DNA from: Planctomycetota bacterium
Lineage (GTDB): Bacteria; Planctomycetota; Planctomycetia; Gemmatales; Gemmataceae
Direction of reading: 5' to 3'
Length of the DNA: 37,881 bases
Assembly (NCBI GenBank): GCA_016873095.1
Contig: VGYC01000056.1
Span: 1 to 37,881 of the forward strand
Shown here: piece after piece, positions 5,193 through 23,303 of the stretch
Layout: each line of letters opens with the position of its first letter
How positions within the stretch are numbered: the first letter of the stretch is position 1
Made by a program: the position numbers and the translations under genes
The notes under the pieces: model-generated
The model's database searches: none
The model's input: only the letters and a program-made list of their open reading frames with translations
Told to the model about the DNA's origin: nothing

Positions 5193-6317
5193 ATGACTTT
5201 CCCGAAGATCAACGAGTGTAGACGCCGGCTTGTGGCCGGTCTCCTCCTTGCGGTAGCGCTGGCTTGCGGACAGGTGCAAGCGCAGGAGAAATACCGCGTG
5301 TACCTCGGCACCTACACCGACAAGGACAGCAAGGGCATTTACCAGTGCGAGATGAACCTCAAGGATGGTTCGCTGTCGCCGGCGACGCTGGCGGGAGAGA
5401 CGAGCGACCCGTCCTTCATCGCGTTCCATCCGAACAAGAAGTTTCTCTACGCCGTCAACGAAGGGCAGGCGGCGGTCAGCGCTTTTGCCATCGACGAGAA
5501 GACCGGCAAGCTCACGTTCCTCAACAAGCAGCCGTCGCAGGGCGGGGCGCCGTGCCATCTCGTCGTCGATGCGACGGGCAAGAACGTGCTGGCTGCCAAT
5601 TACTCGGGTGGCAGCTGCATCTGCCTTCCGATTGAAGCGGACGGCAAGCTGGGCAAGGCAACTTCCTTCCAGCAGCATGAGGGCAAGAAAAAGAACGGGC
5701 ACTCAATCCACGTGGACAAGGCCAACAAGTTCGCACTGTGCTGCGATCTCGGCCTGGACAAGGTCATCATCTACGCTTTCGACGCCGGCAAGGGAACGCT
5801 GACCGCGCACGGCGCCTTCGACACGCCGAGGGGCGCCGGCCCGCGACATTTCGCCTGGCATCCCGATGGCAAGACGGCCTACATCAACGGCGAGTCCGAC
5901 CTGACCATCATTGCCTGCGCGTACGACGCGGACAAGGGCATCCTGACACAGCGGCAGGTGCTTTCCACGCTGCCCAGGGATGTTGCTCGCAAGGGAGGCA
6001 GCACGGCGGAAACCGTGGTGCACCCTTCCGGAAAATTTGTCTACGTCTCCAACCGCGATCCTTACAACTCGATCGCGATCTTCTCGATCGATCCGAAGAC
6101 GCGCAAGCTGACGGCCGTAGCACACCAGGGCATGGGCGTGAAGACGCCGCGCAACTTCGCCATCGAGCCGACCGGGCGATACATGCTCGTTGCCAACCAG
6201 TCGGGCGGCAACGTCATCGTCTTTCGCATCAACCAGTCCACCGGCGCACTGACGCCGACCGGGGCCAGCGTGCAGGTAGCCAACCCGGTATGCGTGCGCT
6301 TCATGGAGCTGAAATGA
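5193..6317 (+). CDS. Secreted lactonase-family seven-bladed beta-propeller
   Basis: A 374-residue protein of the 6-phosphogluconolactonase/carboxymuconate-cyclase-like family (YbhE/Pgl type). It opens with an export signal (RRRLVAGLLLAVALACGQVQAQ), so it acts outside the cytoplasm and is unlikely to be the pentose-phosphate enzyme itself. Family hallmarks are YLGTYTDKDSKGIYQ at the start of the propeller, DPSFIAFHPNKKFLYAVNE, the repeated 'HPSGKFVYVSNRD' blade pattern, and 'GRYMLVANQSGGNVIVF' near the end. Planctomycete genomes carry many paralogues of this exported group, whose substrates are unknown. It ends about 120 bases before the convergent ABC permease gene. Confidence 0.85.
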   Translation: MTFPKINECRRRLVAGLLLAVALACGQVQAQEKYRVYLGTYTDKDSKGIYQCEMNLKDGSLSPATLAGETSDPSFIAFHPNKKFLYAVNEGQAAVSAFAIDEKTGKLTFLNKQPSQGGAPCHLVVDATGKNVLAANYSGGSCICLPIEADGKLGKATSFQQHEGKKKNGHSIHVDKANKFALCCDLGLDKVIIYAFDAGKGTLTAHGAFDTPRGAGPRHFAWHPDGKTAYINGESDLTIIACAYDADKGILTQRQVLSTLPRDVARKGGSTAETVVHPSGKFVYVSNRDPYNSIAIFSIDPKTRKLTAVAHQGMGVKTPRNFAIEPTGRYMLVANQSGGNVIVFRINQSTGALTPTGASVQVANPVCVRFMELK

Positions 6318-20359: not shown

Positions 20360-20896
20360 ATGTTCATCAAGTCTCTCGGTGTGGTCTTGATCGTGGGCGT
20401 GGTCCTGGCAGGCGATCTGCCTTCCGGGCCGCAGGTCGGCCAGAAGCTGACGCCCTTCAAGGTGCTCGCCTTCTCGGGGCCGGACGCCGGCAAGGAGCTG
20501 GAGTTATTGAAGAAGGACAAGGGACCGACGCTCTTGATCTTTGTCCACAAGATCACCCGGCCGGCGCTCAAATTTCTCCGGCCGGTGGACAAGTTCGTTG
20601 CCGAGCTGGAGGAGGGCAAGCTGCACGCCCGCATCGTCTGGCTCAGCGAGGACAAGGACAAAGCCAAGGAGTTTCTGGACCGGGCCAAGAATTCGCTGAA
20701 CCTGGAGACACCCATCGTCATCTCGCTCGACGGCAAGGACGGCCCCGGTGCCTACGGCCTCAACGACCAGGTCGCGCTCACCGTGCTCATTGCCAAGGGC
20801 AGCAAGGTCGAGGCCAACTTCGCCCTCATCGACCCCAACGCCAACGACGCTCCCAAGGTGATCCGGGCGCTGGGGAAGGTGACCGGCAAGAAGTGA
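20360..20896 (+). CDS. Exported thioredoxin-fold-like protein without CxxC
   Basis: A 178-residue protein with a short signal peptide (MFIKSLGVVLIVGVVLAGD) and a good GGAGG site before the ATG. The body looks like the AhpC/redoxin fold (VGQKLTPFKVLAFSGPDAGK, then GPTLLIFVHKITRPALKFLR), but the position where peroxiredoxins and thioredoxins carry catalytic Cys reads VHKITRP. No cysteine is present anywhere in the mature protein, so it cannot do thiol redox chemistry. The C-terminal half (GLNDQVALTVLIAKGSKVEA, then NFALIDPNANDAPKVIRALG) fits the last strands and helix of that fold. Function unknown; a binding role is plausible. Confidence 0.7.
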   Translation: MFIKSLGVVLIVGVVLAGDLPSGPQVGQKLTPFKVLAFSGPDAGKELELLKKDKGPTLLIFVHKITRPALKFLRPVDKFVAELEEGKLHARIVWLSEDKDKAKEFLDRAKNSLNLETPIVISLDGKDGPGAYGLNDQVALTVLIAKGSKVEANFALIDPNANDAPKVIRALGKVTGKK

Positions 20897-20965
20897 GCAT
20901 CATTTTCGCGGCCTTCAAATGGATGGGGTAGTTTGCCCGAGTGGATTCCAGCTACGGCGTAGCGC

Positions 20966-21301
20966 TTGCTGGAATGCTCGTTCTTGGTCCCGATTCGACG
21001 GGACAAGGAGATATCGGATGGCAAGCTGCATCCGGAGCGAAAATGGCGGTGGCTCAATGAAGGGCTGTTTGAGCTGTTTGGCGGCCACACCCTTGCACCA
21101 GGATTCTATCAGGGCCAATGGTTGAATCCGAAGAGCGGAGTTCCGATAGCCGACGAATCACGAAAGTACATCGTGGCCGTTCCGCGGAAGCGCGTCGATG
21201 AACTGCGGCAACTGTTGGCCGAAGCCTGCACCGCCTTTCAGCAACAGGCAATCTACCTGAGCGTTGCAGGGCACGTCGAACTGATTGAGGCAAATACATG
21301 A
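20966..21301 (+). CDS. Conserved small protein of unknown function, first gene of an HTH-linked pair
   Basis: A 111-residue protein. It starts at TTG 20966; an in-frame TAG at 20960-20962 excludes a longer form. It begins LLECSFLVPIRRD and contains an aromatic-rich centre (WRWLNEGLFELFGGHTLAPG, FYQGQW), then RKYIVAVPRKRVDELRQLL and AIYLSVAGHVELIE. I recall similar small planctomycete proteins but no named family. Its TGA overlaps the ATG of the helix-turn-helix gene by 4 bases, so both are made together. The coupling to a small HTH protein recalls toxin-antitoxin modules, but toxicity is untested. A short inverted repeat (ATTCCAGC...GCTGGAAT, 20944-20976) straddles the start. Confidence 0.65.
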   Translation: MLECSFLVPIRRDKEISDGKLHPERKWRWLNEGLFELFGGHTLAPGFYQGQWLNPKSGVPIADESRKYIVAVPRKRVDELRQLLAEACTAFQQQAIYLSVAGHVELIEANT

Positions 21302-21813
21302 TTCGCGCCAAGACCTACGTGGACCTGAACGGCCGTGAATTTGTCGTAGACGACCTGGACGCGGACGAGCGCCGTCTGCTGCAGAACATCAGGCGGCAAG
21401 CACAGCGCGGGCCCGACTGGAATGCCTTCGACAACAACTGGCTGCCGCAAGTTGCCGAATTCTATCGACGCCGCGGCTTGAGGCGCCGCCAGACGATCGA
21501 AACTGCCATCTTTCAGATCGCCCAGGACCTGAGCAGCCGCCTCGGCATCGACCAGGGCAAGACGCGCCGCGCCGACTATCGTGACGAGCTGGCTGATTTG
21601 ATCCAAGCCAGGTTCAAGAGCCAGGGAGAGTTCTGCAAGGCCACCGGCTTGTCCACCGATATGCTCAGCCACGTGCTGGCCAGGCGCAAGCACCTGGGCA
21701 TCGACACGCTGCAAAGTGCTCTCGAACGCATCGGCTTCACCCTGCGCATCGTGCCACGGACCAAGGCTGCAAAGCGGAACGGCACACACGCCTCCAGCCC
21801 ACGGCCTTCATAA
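21298..21813 (+). CDS. Helix-turn-helix (XRE/Cro-like) protein
   Basis: A 171-residue protein. The N-terminal 90 residues are charged and helical (LDADERRLLQNIRRQAQ, DWNAFDNNWLPQVAEFYRRR). The C-terminal part has an XRE-type helix-turn-helix at about 100-145: LIQARFKSQGEFCKATGLST, then DMLSHVLARRKHLGIDTLQS and ALERIGFTLRI, the layout of antitoxin-type Cro repressors (HigA, or those that end in 'L..AL.alG..l.i'). It begins inside the stop codon of the upstream gene (ATGA). The protein may be the regulator or antitoxin of the pair. It is the last rightward gene before the convergent sialidase gene. Confidence 0.75.
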   Translation: MIRAKTYVDLNGREFVVDDLDADERRLLQNIRRQAQRGPDWNAFDNNWLPQVAEFYRRRGLRRRQTIETAIFQIAQDLSSRLGIDQGKTRRADYRDELADLIQARFKSQGEFCKATGLSTDMLSHVLARRKHLGIDTLQSALERIGFTLRIVPRTKAAKRNGTHASSPRPS

Positions 21814-21873
21814 ATGAGTCATTCAATAACTTACCTGCACGGCTCGCGTAACTTTGGCCGGCCGCGCTGATTG

Positions 21874-23037
21874 CTACTTGGAAGAGGAGTTGCCATCACC
21901 ATAGAGCCAGTGCACCTCGAAGATCGCGGCCTTCAGATGAATGGGGTAGTTGGACATGAAACCGTTCTTCTGGTAGAGGCAAGCCCAGTAGTTGACGATG
22001 GCAGTCCCCTTGCTGGTGAAGGTGAGGCCGGGGTTCGAGTAGGCCCAGCCCGGATCGTCCTCGATATGTCGCGGCTTGCTCCAGGTGCGGCCGTCGTCCT
22101 TCGAGATGGCCGCACTCAGCGGCGTGCGCTTGCCGAAGTGTGAGCGCCACTTCGGGTCATACCTGGCGGCGTTCCAGATGAGGACGAGGTCGCCGGTCTT
22201 CGGAATCCTGGCCAGCTCGGGGCAGGACTCCGGCGCCTCGACGCCGAGTGATTCGGATTTCGACCAGGTGACGCCGCCATCGGCGGAGATCGACTTGTAG
22301 ACGCTGCCCAGCTGGGTGCGCATGACCATGAGCAGCTTCTTGTCGCGCAGCTCCTCAACGTGCGGCTCCATGGCGCCGCGCTTGGCGGCCGTCACCCATG
22401 TTTCGCCCTCCTTCCAGGTTTTGCCATGGTCGTCGCTGTAGTAGATTCCCGCTTCCCAGCGATCCGGTTCCCCTTTCTTGCTCGGGTCGCGATTGACCGG
22501 GATGAGGAGCCGTCCCGTCGAGAGGCGTTTCAGAGTGTGGCTGGTCAGCGTGATCGGCTTTTCCTTCCACAACGTCGCCAGCGGCTGAAACGACTTGCCC
22601 TCGTCCTTGGAGATCCAGGCGTAGGCCGACGCCGGCGGATAGCGGTTGATGGCCTTGTCGAAGGTGTGGTAGCGCATGAAGCAGAACAGGATATCGCCGC
22701 TGGGCAAGCGAATCAGGCTCGGCGAGAAGACGTTGATGTCCTCCTTGGTCGGCGTGACCAGCACACGATGTCCGCCCCAGGTGCGCCCGCCGTCGCGCGA
22801 GGTCATCGACACCAGCCGGCCGGGAAAGAAATCGGAGTCCCCCTTGCCCAGCGTGAATTCCTGGTAGATGATCAGCAGCTTGCCATCCTTGAGCTCGATG
22901 ATCGAGCCCTCGGAGTTACGGACGACCTTGCCCTTGGCCTCGGCGAGCATGACGATCTCAGGCTTGGCGGGAACGACGTTGGCGCGAGCGAGCAGGACCG
23001 GACTCAGGAAAAGAGCGATTGCCAAGATTCGGACCAC
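21874..23037 (-). CDS. Exported sialidase-like Asp-box (BNR) protein
   Basis: A 387-residue six-bladed beta-propeller of the exo-alpha-sialidase superfamily. The start is GTG at 23037, fixed by GAGGAG 6 bases upstream and by the signal peptide that follows (VRILAIALFLSPVLLARA). Five Asp-box motifs S-x-D-x-G-x-[TS]-[WF] are seen: SRDGGRTW, SKDEGKSF, SDDHGKTW, SADGGVTW and SKDDGRTW. A propeller entry RNSEGSIIELKDGKLLIIYQ and acidic active-site candidates (MEPHVEEL, ESCPELARI) fit the planctomycete 'sialidase family' group. True sialidases have an Arg triad that I cannot verify here, so another glycan hydrolase or binding role is possible. Only 11 bases separate it from the upstream small gene. 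Confidence 0.85.
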   Translation of the reverse strand: MVRILAIALFLSPVLLARANVVPAKPEIVMLAEAKGKVVRNSEGSIIELKDGKLLIIYQEFTLGKGDSDFFPGRLVSMTSRDGGRTWGGHRVLVTPTKEDINVFSPSLIRLPSGDILFCFMRYHTFDKAINRYPPASAYAWISKDEGKSFQPLATLWKEKPITLTSHTLKRLSTGRLLIPVNRDPSKKGEPDRWEAGIYYSDDHGKTWKEGETWVTAAKRGAMEPHVEELRDKKLLMVMRTQLGSVYKSISADGGVTWSKSESLGVEAPESCPELARIPKTGDLVLIWNAARYDPKWRSHFGKRTPLSAAISKDDGRTWSKPRHIEDDPGWAYSNPGLTFTSKGTAIVNYWACLYQKNGFMSNYPIHLKAAIFEVHWLYGDGNSSSK

Positions 23038-23048
23038 GACGTGCTCCT

Positions 23049-23303
23049 CTATGGGTTTGGAGTAAATCCGGGCGGTGCGATGATCTCTGCAAGAATAGGT
23101 GGATCGGTGAACCAGCAATCGCACCAGTCGTAGACTTCGATAGTCCACCTGCCGTTCCGTTCGATCCAGGGCGTGTTCAGCAATAGTTGGTGGATCTCGG
23201 CGAACTCGCCAATGAATCCGAGGGCCTTTCCCACGGTCGTCGCTCTTGCCGTCACGTGCTGAATGCCAAAACAGACTCCGTCAGCCATTTCAATCGTGAA
23301 CAT
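23049..23303 (-). CDS. Small protein of unknown function in the toxin-antitoxin cluster
   Basis: An 84-residue protein starting at ATG 23303, nine bases after the stop of the preceding gene. The sequence MFTIEMADGVCFGIQHVTAR, then RNGRWTIEVYDWCDCWF, is Trp/Cys-rich in its second half; no family recognised. It lies in an uninterrupted leftward run of genes that starts with the antitoxin at 24256 and continues into the sialidase. No Shine-Dalgarno site is evident, which suggests coupling to the gene before it. Confidence 0.5.
   Translation of the reverse strand: MFTIEMADGVCFGIQHVTARATTVGKALGFIGEFAEIHQLLLNTPWIERNGRWTIEVYDWCDCWFTDPPILAEIIAPPGFTPNP

Follow-up and report, generated by a model that had tools for sequence, protein, structure and literature searches.

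A conserved pair of genes that may form a toxin-antitoxin-like module, with a first protein predicted to fold like a phage SAM lyase

Two adjacent genes from a planctomycete, which we call A and B, form a real module that is conserved as a two-gene unit. We propose that it is an undescribed and self-contained module of the type II toxin-antitoxin kind, in which A would be the toxin and B would be both its antitoxin and a repressor. We put the probability of this reading at a little under 60%. The genes lie in a window of 37,881 nucleotides (by the window, we mean the whole stretch of DNA that was analyzed).

Gene A (20966..21301, + strand) encodes a protein of 111 amino acids, the proposed toxin. 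Its start codon is TTG, and there is an in-frame TAG two codons 5' of this start. Gene B (21298..21813, + strand) starts with ATG and encodes a protein of 171 amino acids, the proposed antitoxin and autorepressor. The end of A and the start of B share an ATGA overlap. These frames and their overlap, as given in a preliminary description of this DNA, are borne out by the list of open reading frames. Furthermore, both genes are real: L016 (the same place as L029), the nearest relative in which the pair is complete, has both of them, similar and in the same order: A is 49% identical over 107 amino acids and B is 54% identical over 153 amino acids.

The pair was also said to have convergent neighbors. 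This is correct for the downstream side, where a BNR/sialidase-like gene (21874-23148, - strand) converges with B, but not for the upstream side, where the open reading frame (20360-20896, + strand) runs in the same direction as A and ends 69 bp 5' of it. The upstream frame has no family match. A scan of 20700-21950 with the sigma-70 consensus did not recognize any promoter for the module, so read-through from the upstream frame is possible.

How tightly are the two genes linked? Homologues of A were found at 14 places in 13 of 294 Planctomycetota genomes (these numbers include the window and a paralogue in the same genome), and in all 14, a B-type partner with the same orientation lies directly downstream. 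BLAST identifies 11 of these partners as relatives of B, counting the window's own B and, among the ten others, the one at L026. At L021, the match to A is followed by a truncated B, and at L024 and L027, the partner was assigned by grouped profile similarity only. The preliminary description had held that a toxin-antitoxin or defense role would be in doubt if homologues of A were usually found without an HTH partner; in the core family, every match to A is paired. As for the more distant partners, the N-termini of those at L024, L027, and L061 matched the N-terminal domain of B in one joint alignment (P = 8.9e-5, probability 59.6), while the best probability with 200 column-shuffled templates was 2.0. 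This suggests that these N-termini are related to the N-terminal domain of B, and it is only suggestive because three sequences, aligned jointly, are few.

The second pair in the window's own genome, on contig C109, is a diverged copy (its A is 45% identical). Directly 5' of it (L002) are the genes for a 129-amino-acid protein (2464-2850, - strand) that is weakly similar to A (P = 7e-4) and for a 185-amino-acid partner (1902-2456, - strand). Judging by these similarities, the two pairs may be a tandem of related modules.

We also searched a collection of genome contigs with an alignment of B. This gave 22 loci, all from MAGs, which span Planctomycetota/Planctomycetia, Chloroflexi, Elusimicrobia, Rokuibacteriota, Acidobacteria, Aerophobetes, and Deltaproteobacteria; 7 of the 22 are places that were already among the matches of the A search. 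A is upstream of B in 18 of the 22 loci, if we include two that are frameshifted and two that are cut by contig ends. More precisely, an open A lies directly 5' of B in 15 loci (at L033, the contig end truncates A at its start), the tail of A alone is present at the contig end 5' of B in one (L028), and a frameshifted A accompanies an intact B in two (L031 and L038). Three loci have an intact B without A (L035, L044, and L046), of which L035 has just 172 bp of contig before B, and one (L049) has a fragment of B without A. So A is missing or broken while B is intact in 5 of the 22 B loci, and A occurs without a B-type gene in 0 of the 14 A places. The frameshifted A genes are in MAGs, so they may be assembly errors.

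The genes are usually close together: at 17 of 19 junctions, there is a candidate start for B within 50 bp of the stop of A, and the looser ones are at L041 (152 bp) and L023 (76 bp). The distances among A proteins and among B proteins are correlated (Mantel p = 0.0002, 14 loci), as shared descent alone would also give. For the N-terminal domain and the HTH of B, the partial correlations with A are 0.34 and 0.36 (from 14 of 16 loci, as L030 and L033 were left out as incomplete), and they did not decide which of the two parts tracks A better.

The module is patchy in its distribution and has no conserved neighbors. When we compared flanking open reading frames of at least 100 amino acids (E <= 1e-8) across 26 loci, 8 of the 325 pairs of loci shared any similar frame. 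The adjacent gene was common to just one pair of loci, L038 and L049, which are both from one assembly. Neither A nor B of the window has a match among 72,556 plasmid and 50,697 phage records, and a search of the genome-contig collection with A alone found no relative.

The A protein was thought to belong to no known family, and indeed, it has no match in Pfam, NCBIfam, PADLOC, or PHROGs (E <= 1). Its predicted structure (pLDDT 95.1) is a PII-like domain. The best match in the PDB by Foldseek is the phage SAM lyase Svi3-3 (6zm9; E = 4.7e-6, TMq 0.72), followed by the apo form of Svi3-3 and then, starting at E = 4.5e-3, by proteins of the PII and CutA kinds. With VIA-align 2, A aligns to 6zm9 with a Z of 10.7 (2.7 Å over 105 residues), as compared to Z of 7.8-8.3 for DUF3240, CutA, and PII, scores that the tool describes as common. 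The SAM-AMP lyase of type III CRISPR systems (9gab/9gad), which is of the same fold class, has a Z of 7.5. If the model is right, then the clearly best fold match of A is a SAM lyase rather than PII. The preliminary description had conceded that a fold with a known housekeeping role would count against it, and this best match is instead to a phage enzyme.

At the level of sequence, the similarity is faint. Comparing A to the sequences in the PDB gave chance-level matches only (the best E values were 0.18 and 0.88). The S-AdoMet lyase family, PF23780, has sub-threshold matches to 5 of 16 A homologues (best E = 0.0021) and does not match the A of the window at E <= 10; in one scored match, the A family missed the curated cut-off (15.2 bits versus 28). 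Eight phage SAM lyases, taken together as an alignment, did match the A family (P = 4.5e-5, probability 68.8), and in 200 shuffles, the probability was at most 5.1.

The conserved positions of A are H22, G50, an aromatic residue at 52, D/E63, S65, R66, Y68, L80, and Q93. G50 with the aromatic residue at 52 is present in 16 of 16 sequences, and so is Gln93, which is located in the segment that joins helix 2 to the following strand. The phage SAM lyases (i.e., Svi3-3, T3 SAMase, and PF23780) share with A both the glycine with an aromatic residue at +2 and the B-loop glutamine, as well as the PII-like fold of the predicted model. Also, the B-loop Gln of the SAM-AMP lyase corresponds to that of the SAM lyase: Gln104 of Svi3-3 is described as overlapping the Gln that matters for the activity of the SAM-AMP lyase. 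The catalytic residue, which in Svi3-3 is a Glu that closes the T-loop, is less clear. Svi3-3 is described as requiring Glu69, and hhalign pairs this catalytic Glu, via a four-residue gap, with position 63 of A (D in 14 of 16 and E in 2 of 16). In an ungapped reading by eye, the catalytic Glu would be opposite position 67, where 13 of 16 sequences have K or R. Overall, the model and the alignments indicate that A retains conserved polar residues at what would be the SAM lyase cleft, and the chemistry may differ. And unlike the phage SAM lyases, the A of the window lacks a Pfam match and is paired with an HTH gene. We do not name A a SAM lyase, and cleavage of SAM by A is hypothetical. A link between A and DUF3574 was set aside: among the proteins scanned, only the A-like protein at L027 matched (E = 0.081).

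The predicted structure of B (pLDDT 88.8) has two parts. The first, which is mainly helical, is the proposed A-binding domain (about residues 1-91; 21298..21570, + strand), as delimited by the alignment and the profile match. The second is an XRE-type helix-turn-helix (about residues 94-145; 21577..21732, + strand). A C-terminal HTH had been noticed from the sequence, and it is confirmed by a weak match to HTH_37 (residues 91-152, E = 0.019, below the Pfam cut-off) and by matches of residues 89-157 to the folds of XRE-type proteins, among them DdrO, P2 C, and ClgR (the highest Z is 7.7). Among the sequences in the PDB, B is similar to an HTH regulator (E = 7.7e-5), to a methyltransferase (E = 0.0062), and more weakly to other HTH proteins.

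As judged from family matches, the DNA-binding domain is exchanged among the partners of A. In the B family, this part is of the XRE type. The relative of B at L026 has an excisionase-type HTH (HTH_17, E = 1.8e-4, and excise, E = 8.9e-4, both below the cut-off). At L024, the C-terminal part of the partner is a HicB-type ribbon-helix-helix (E = 2.5e-12), the partner at L061 has a HicB-type ribbon-helix-helix as well, and family scans of the partner at L027 did not recognize a DNA-binding domain.

More partners may be found among distant relatives. With the A-like protein of L024 as the query, there were matches in 8 of 246 genomes, including the window and two other known places. At L065, the A-like protein has a 65-amino-acid partner that looks by eye like a ribbon-helix-helix protein. 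At L063 and L064, the A-like protein is preceded by a small protein (by eye, alike in both) and there is no evident B-type partner in the neighborhood; this small protein and the A-like gene may be a different type of pair. There was also a weak match on a Deinococcus plasmid (L072; E = 0.01, 30% identity), and the gene table of that plasmid does not have a B-type neighbor.

When we searched 288 genomes with the HicB-type partner, 18 of them had matches, at 20 places in total, and we examined ten of these places, partly by eye. L074 (the same place as L061) has an A-like gene. L075-L079 have an apparent partner N-terminal domain and a HicB-type ribbon-helix-helix, but the visible DNA upstream does not show an A-like gene. 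L081 has an apparent remnant. The genes at L085, L089, and L091 resemble HicB genes of the ordinary kind. The A-like pairs at L024 and L061 resemble HicAB in that they use the HicB-type ribbon-helix-helix and in that the effector gene comes first. On the four plasmids that we looked at, this ribbon-helix-helix has another N-terminal domain and comes after a gene that is of the HicA type or of the size of HicA. We considered the idea that an A-like protein replaces HicA on the same antitoxin, and we dropped it: the alignment with the four plasmid HicB-type matches shares the ribbon-helix-helix only.

The modules of many relatives are preceded by a palindrome, TTGAC-N5-GTCAA. Within 23 regions that extend up to 250 bp 5' of the first gene (with some gene starts set from the alignment), it is exact in 11 and has at most one mismatch in 16, although these sequences helped to define the motif, as we noticed it first in the solo-B loci and then read it in the others. 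The expectation from 2,000 first-order Markov resamplings is 0.0015 for exact matches and 0.10 for at most one mismatch. All three of the solo-B loci retain the palindrome. At L031, L034, and L039, there are palindromes that have two mismatches but are symmetric (TTGCC/GGCAA and TTGTC/GACAA), and the one-mismatch copy at L030 is at -237. There is no copy within 250 bp upstream in the window, L029, L048, or L026, and it is also missing at L021, which is outside the 23 regions. L029 does have a version of it with 9-bp arms farther out, about 300 bp upstream. The palindrome is at the expected place of a -35 hexamer: in 12 of 16 loci, the best TATAAT-like hexamer is 17 bp away (this is a raw count for the best of four spacings that we tried).

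Across ten genomes, there are 18 exact occurrences of the palindrome, as compared to 12 for a reversed control. The three of these ten genomes whose modules have the exact motif (G161, G081, and G037) contain 1, 2, and 2 exact copies, and in each of them, one copy is at the module. Because 3 of these 5 copies sit at the module, it is likely that the module is autoregulated locally. It is also possible that there is a small regulon with mismatched palindromes, as the genome-wide counts are for the exact motif only.

How would the module work? We suggest that A and B are made from one promoter. A would be the effector, or toxin: a small PII-like protein with a ferredoxin-like fold that is close to the phage SAM lyases and that probably forms a trimer. 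Its target is probably a nucleotide-type small molecule, which would be acted on in the cleft between subunits. The N-terminal domain of B would bind A and neutralize it, and the C-terminal HTH of B would bind the palindrome over the -35 box of its own promoter and shut down transcription. If B were lost, both A and the promoter would be released.

We read A as the harmful partner because the pairing is fixed, there is little sign of a regulon, the DNA-binding part of the partner varies, and A decays before B. The last of these points is weakened by the chance that the frameshifts in MAGs are errors. Also counting against our reading are the lack of the palindrome and of a recognizable promoter in the window, the empty searches of plasmids and phages, the remote A-like proteins at L063, L064, and L072 that have no evident B-type partner, and the partner-like proteins of L075-L079. 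Pairs of genes have been used to predict toxin-antitoxin systems (the criteria are described in Makarova 2009, PMC2701414). In our case, the genes are small, adjacent, closely spaced, and paired, one of them encodes a DNA-binding protein, and their spread is patchy, all of which are features of type II systems. The preliminary description had offered the pair as a candidate for an undescribed toxin-antitoxin or defense-related system. The resemblance to toxin-antitoxin systems stands, with conserved pairing and an A that is not RelE-like, while we found no sign of a role in defense.

We think it unlikely, but worth taking seriously, that A is instead a PII-like sensor. It would bind a small molecule and thereby modulate B as a ligand-responsive transcription factor. 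The predicted fold of A is of the PII/CutA type (PII and CutA match at Z of 7.5-8), B is clearly a DNA-binding protein by its fold, and there are PII proteins that affect partners in transcription; the PII-PipX complex (2xg8) is among the fold matches of A. But in the three genomes with the exact motif, the palindrome is rare and is mostly at the module, so no regulon is visible (for the exact motif). Also, the pair is patchy and lacks conserved neighbors, the DNA-binding domain varies among the partners, and the best fold match of A is a SAM lyase, not PII.

It is quite unlikely, we believe, that the module is an anti-defense pair of the acr-aca type, in which A would be an anti-restriction or anti-CRISPR protein from the same family of folds as the SAM lyases and SAM-AMP lyases of phages, while B would be an autorepressor. 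The operons of acr and aca genes resemble the module in their gene order and in having a palindrome in the promoter, which we count in favor of this explanation. On the other hand, Aca proteins are small HTH proteins, while B has a large N-terminal domain that is found with A. Furthermore, the phage and plasmid records that we searched do not contain matches to the A or B of the window. By fold, the best relatives of A are a phage SAM lyase (an anti-restriction protein) and, lower down, the SAM-AMP lyase, and 22 predicted viral proteins, nearly all of them unnamed, match the model of A (E <= 0.001). The phage version of the SAM-AMP lyase is described as an anti-CRISPR candidate (PMC12255297).

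Returning to the toxin-antitoxin reading, the module shares with HigBA the order of its genes, with the small protein first and the HTH protein second. Autoregulation is expected of HigBA as well. Unlike in HigBA, the HTH of B is C-terminal and lies behind a separate N-terminal domain. We rejected the identification of A as HigB or RelE, as the scans of Pfam, NCBIfam, PADLOC, and PHROGs gave no such match (E <= 1). Nor does the HigA model in NCBIfam match the B of the window; among three relatives of B that we scanned, it matched the one at L037 only (E = 0.17, below the cut-off). So by the tests that we made, the module is not HigBA: of the earlier suggestion of a HigBA-type locus whose first protein does not look like RelE, the gene order and the lack of a RelE/HigB match hold up, and membership in HigBA does not. 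VapD toxins are also described as having a ferredoxin-like fold (PMC11980593, PMC10491678). Folds of the VapD/Cas2 type are absent among the matches listed for the model of A.

If A is a toxin, then it would link the nucleotide-sensing fold of PII and the SAM-destroying enzymes of phages to the world of toxin-antitoxin systems, and it would suggest that modules of the host and counter-defense enzymes of phages share an origin. Among the open-access papers that our searches listed, no title or opening of an abstract reports a toxin that is SAM-lyase-like or PII-like. A bolder version of our proposal, about which we are doubtful, is that A is the first toxin with the SAM-lyase fold and depletes SAM or a nucleotide that is derived from SAM or adenine. 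Under this version, there would be a network of modules with exchangeable DNA-binding partners (XRE, excisionase-type, HicB-type, and short ribbon-helix-helix), and one fold would serve both as an anti-defense enzyme of phages and as a toxin of their hosts. The module is small, and many relatives have a clear predicted operator.

The copy in the window has some peculiarities. It is flanked on both sides by a 28-bp direct repeat (20906..20933 and 21924..21951, 26/28 identity). The right copy is within the 3' end of the BNR gene and encodes part of the end of that protein, and there are no further copies elsewhere in the genome, even with up to 3 mismatches. This suggests that DNA was inserted or recombined at the BNR gene's 3' end. 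Such a rearrangement may account for why the copy in the window, unlike its relatives, is missing the palindrome. An exact pattern search did identify an inverted repeat, ATTCCAGC-N15-GCTGGAAT, across the start of A (20945..20975), which is a possible operator for this copy. We also considered whether it was a dispersed repeat and rejected this, as its core has a single exact match in the genome. Whatever the role of the family in other genomes, the module could have decayed or fallen silent in this one, but this is very unlikely in our view: although it lacks the promoter palindrome of its relatives, A starts with TTG, and the bracketing repeat suggests a rearrangement, both frames are intact and have the conserved residues of the family, and the same genome has the second, diverged copy.

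Finally, we note a few observations from individual loci. Near some modules, there are genes that resemble those of toxin-antitoxin systems, by eye MNT-HEPN-like and VapBC-like (L037, 1559-2423, - strand; L044, 6894-7519, + strand; L045, 2944-3312, - strand), and among these is an HTH gene with E = 0.0012 to the profile of B. A viral contig (L050, 4560-5165, + strand) encodes a protein in which a B-like N-terminal domain, without an HTH, comes after a GIY-YIG domain of the SegE type. And at L029, about 300 bp 5' of A (approximately 5292-5314), there is a long palindrome with 9-bp arms, AAACTTGAC-TGGCG-GTCAAGTTT.
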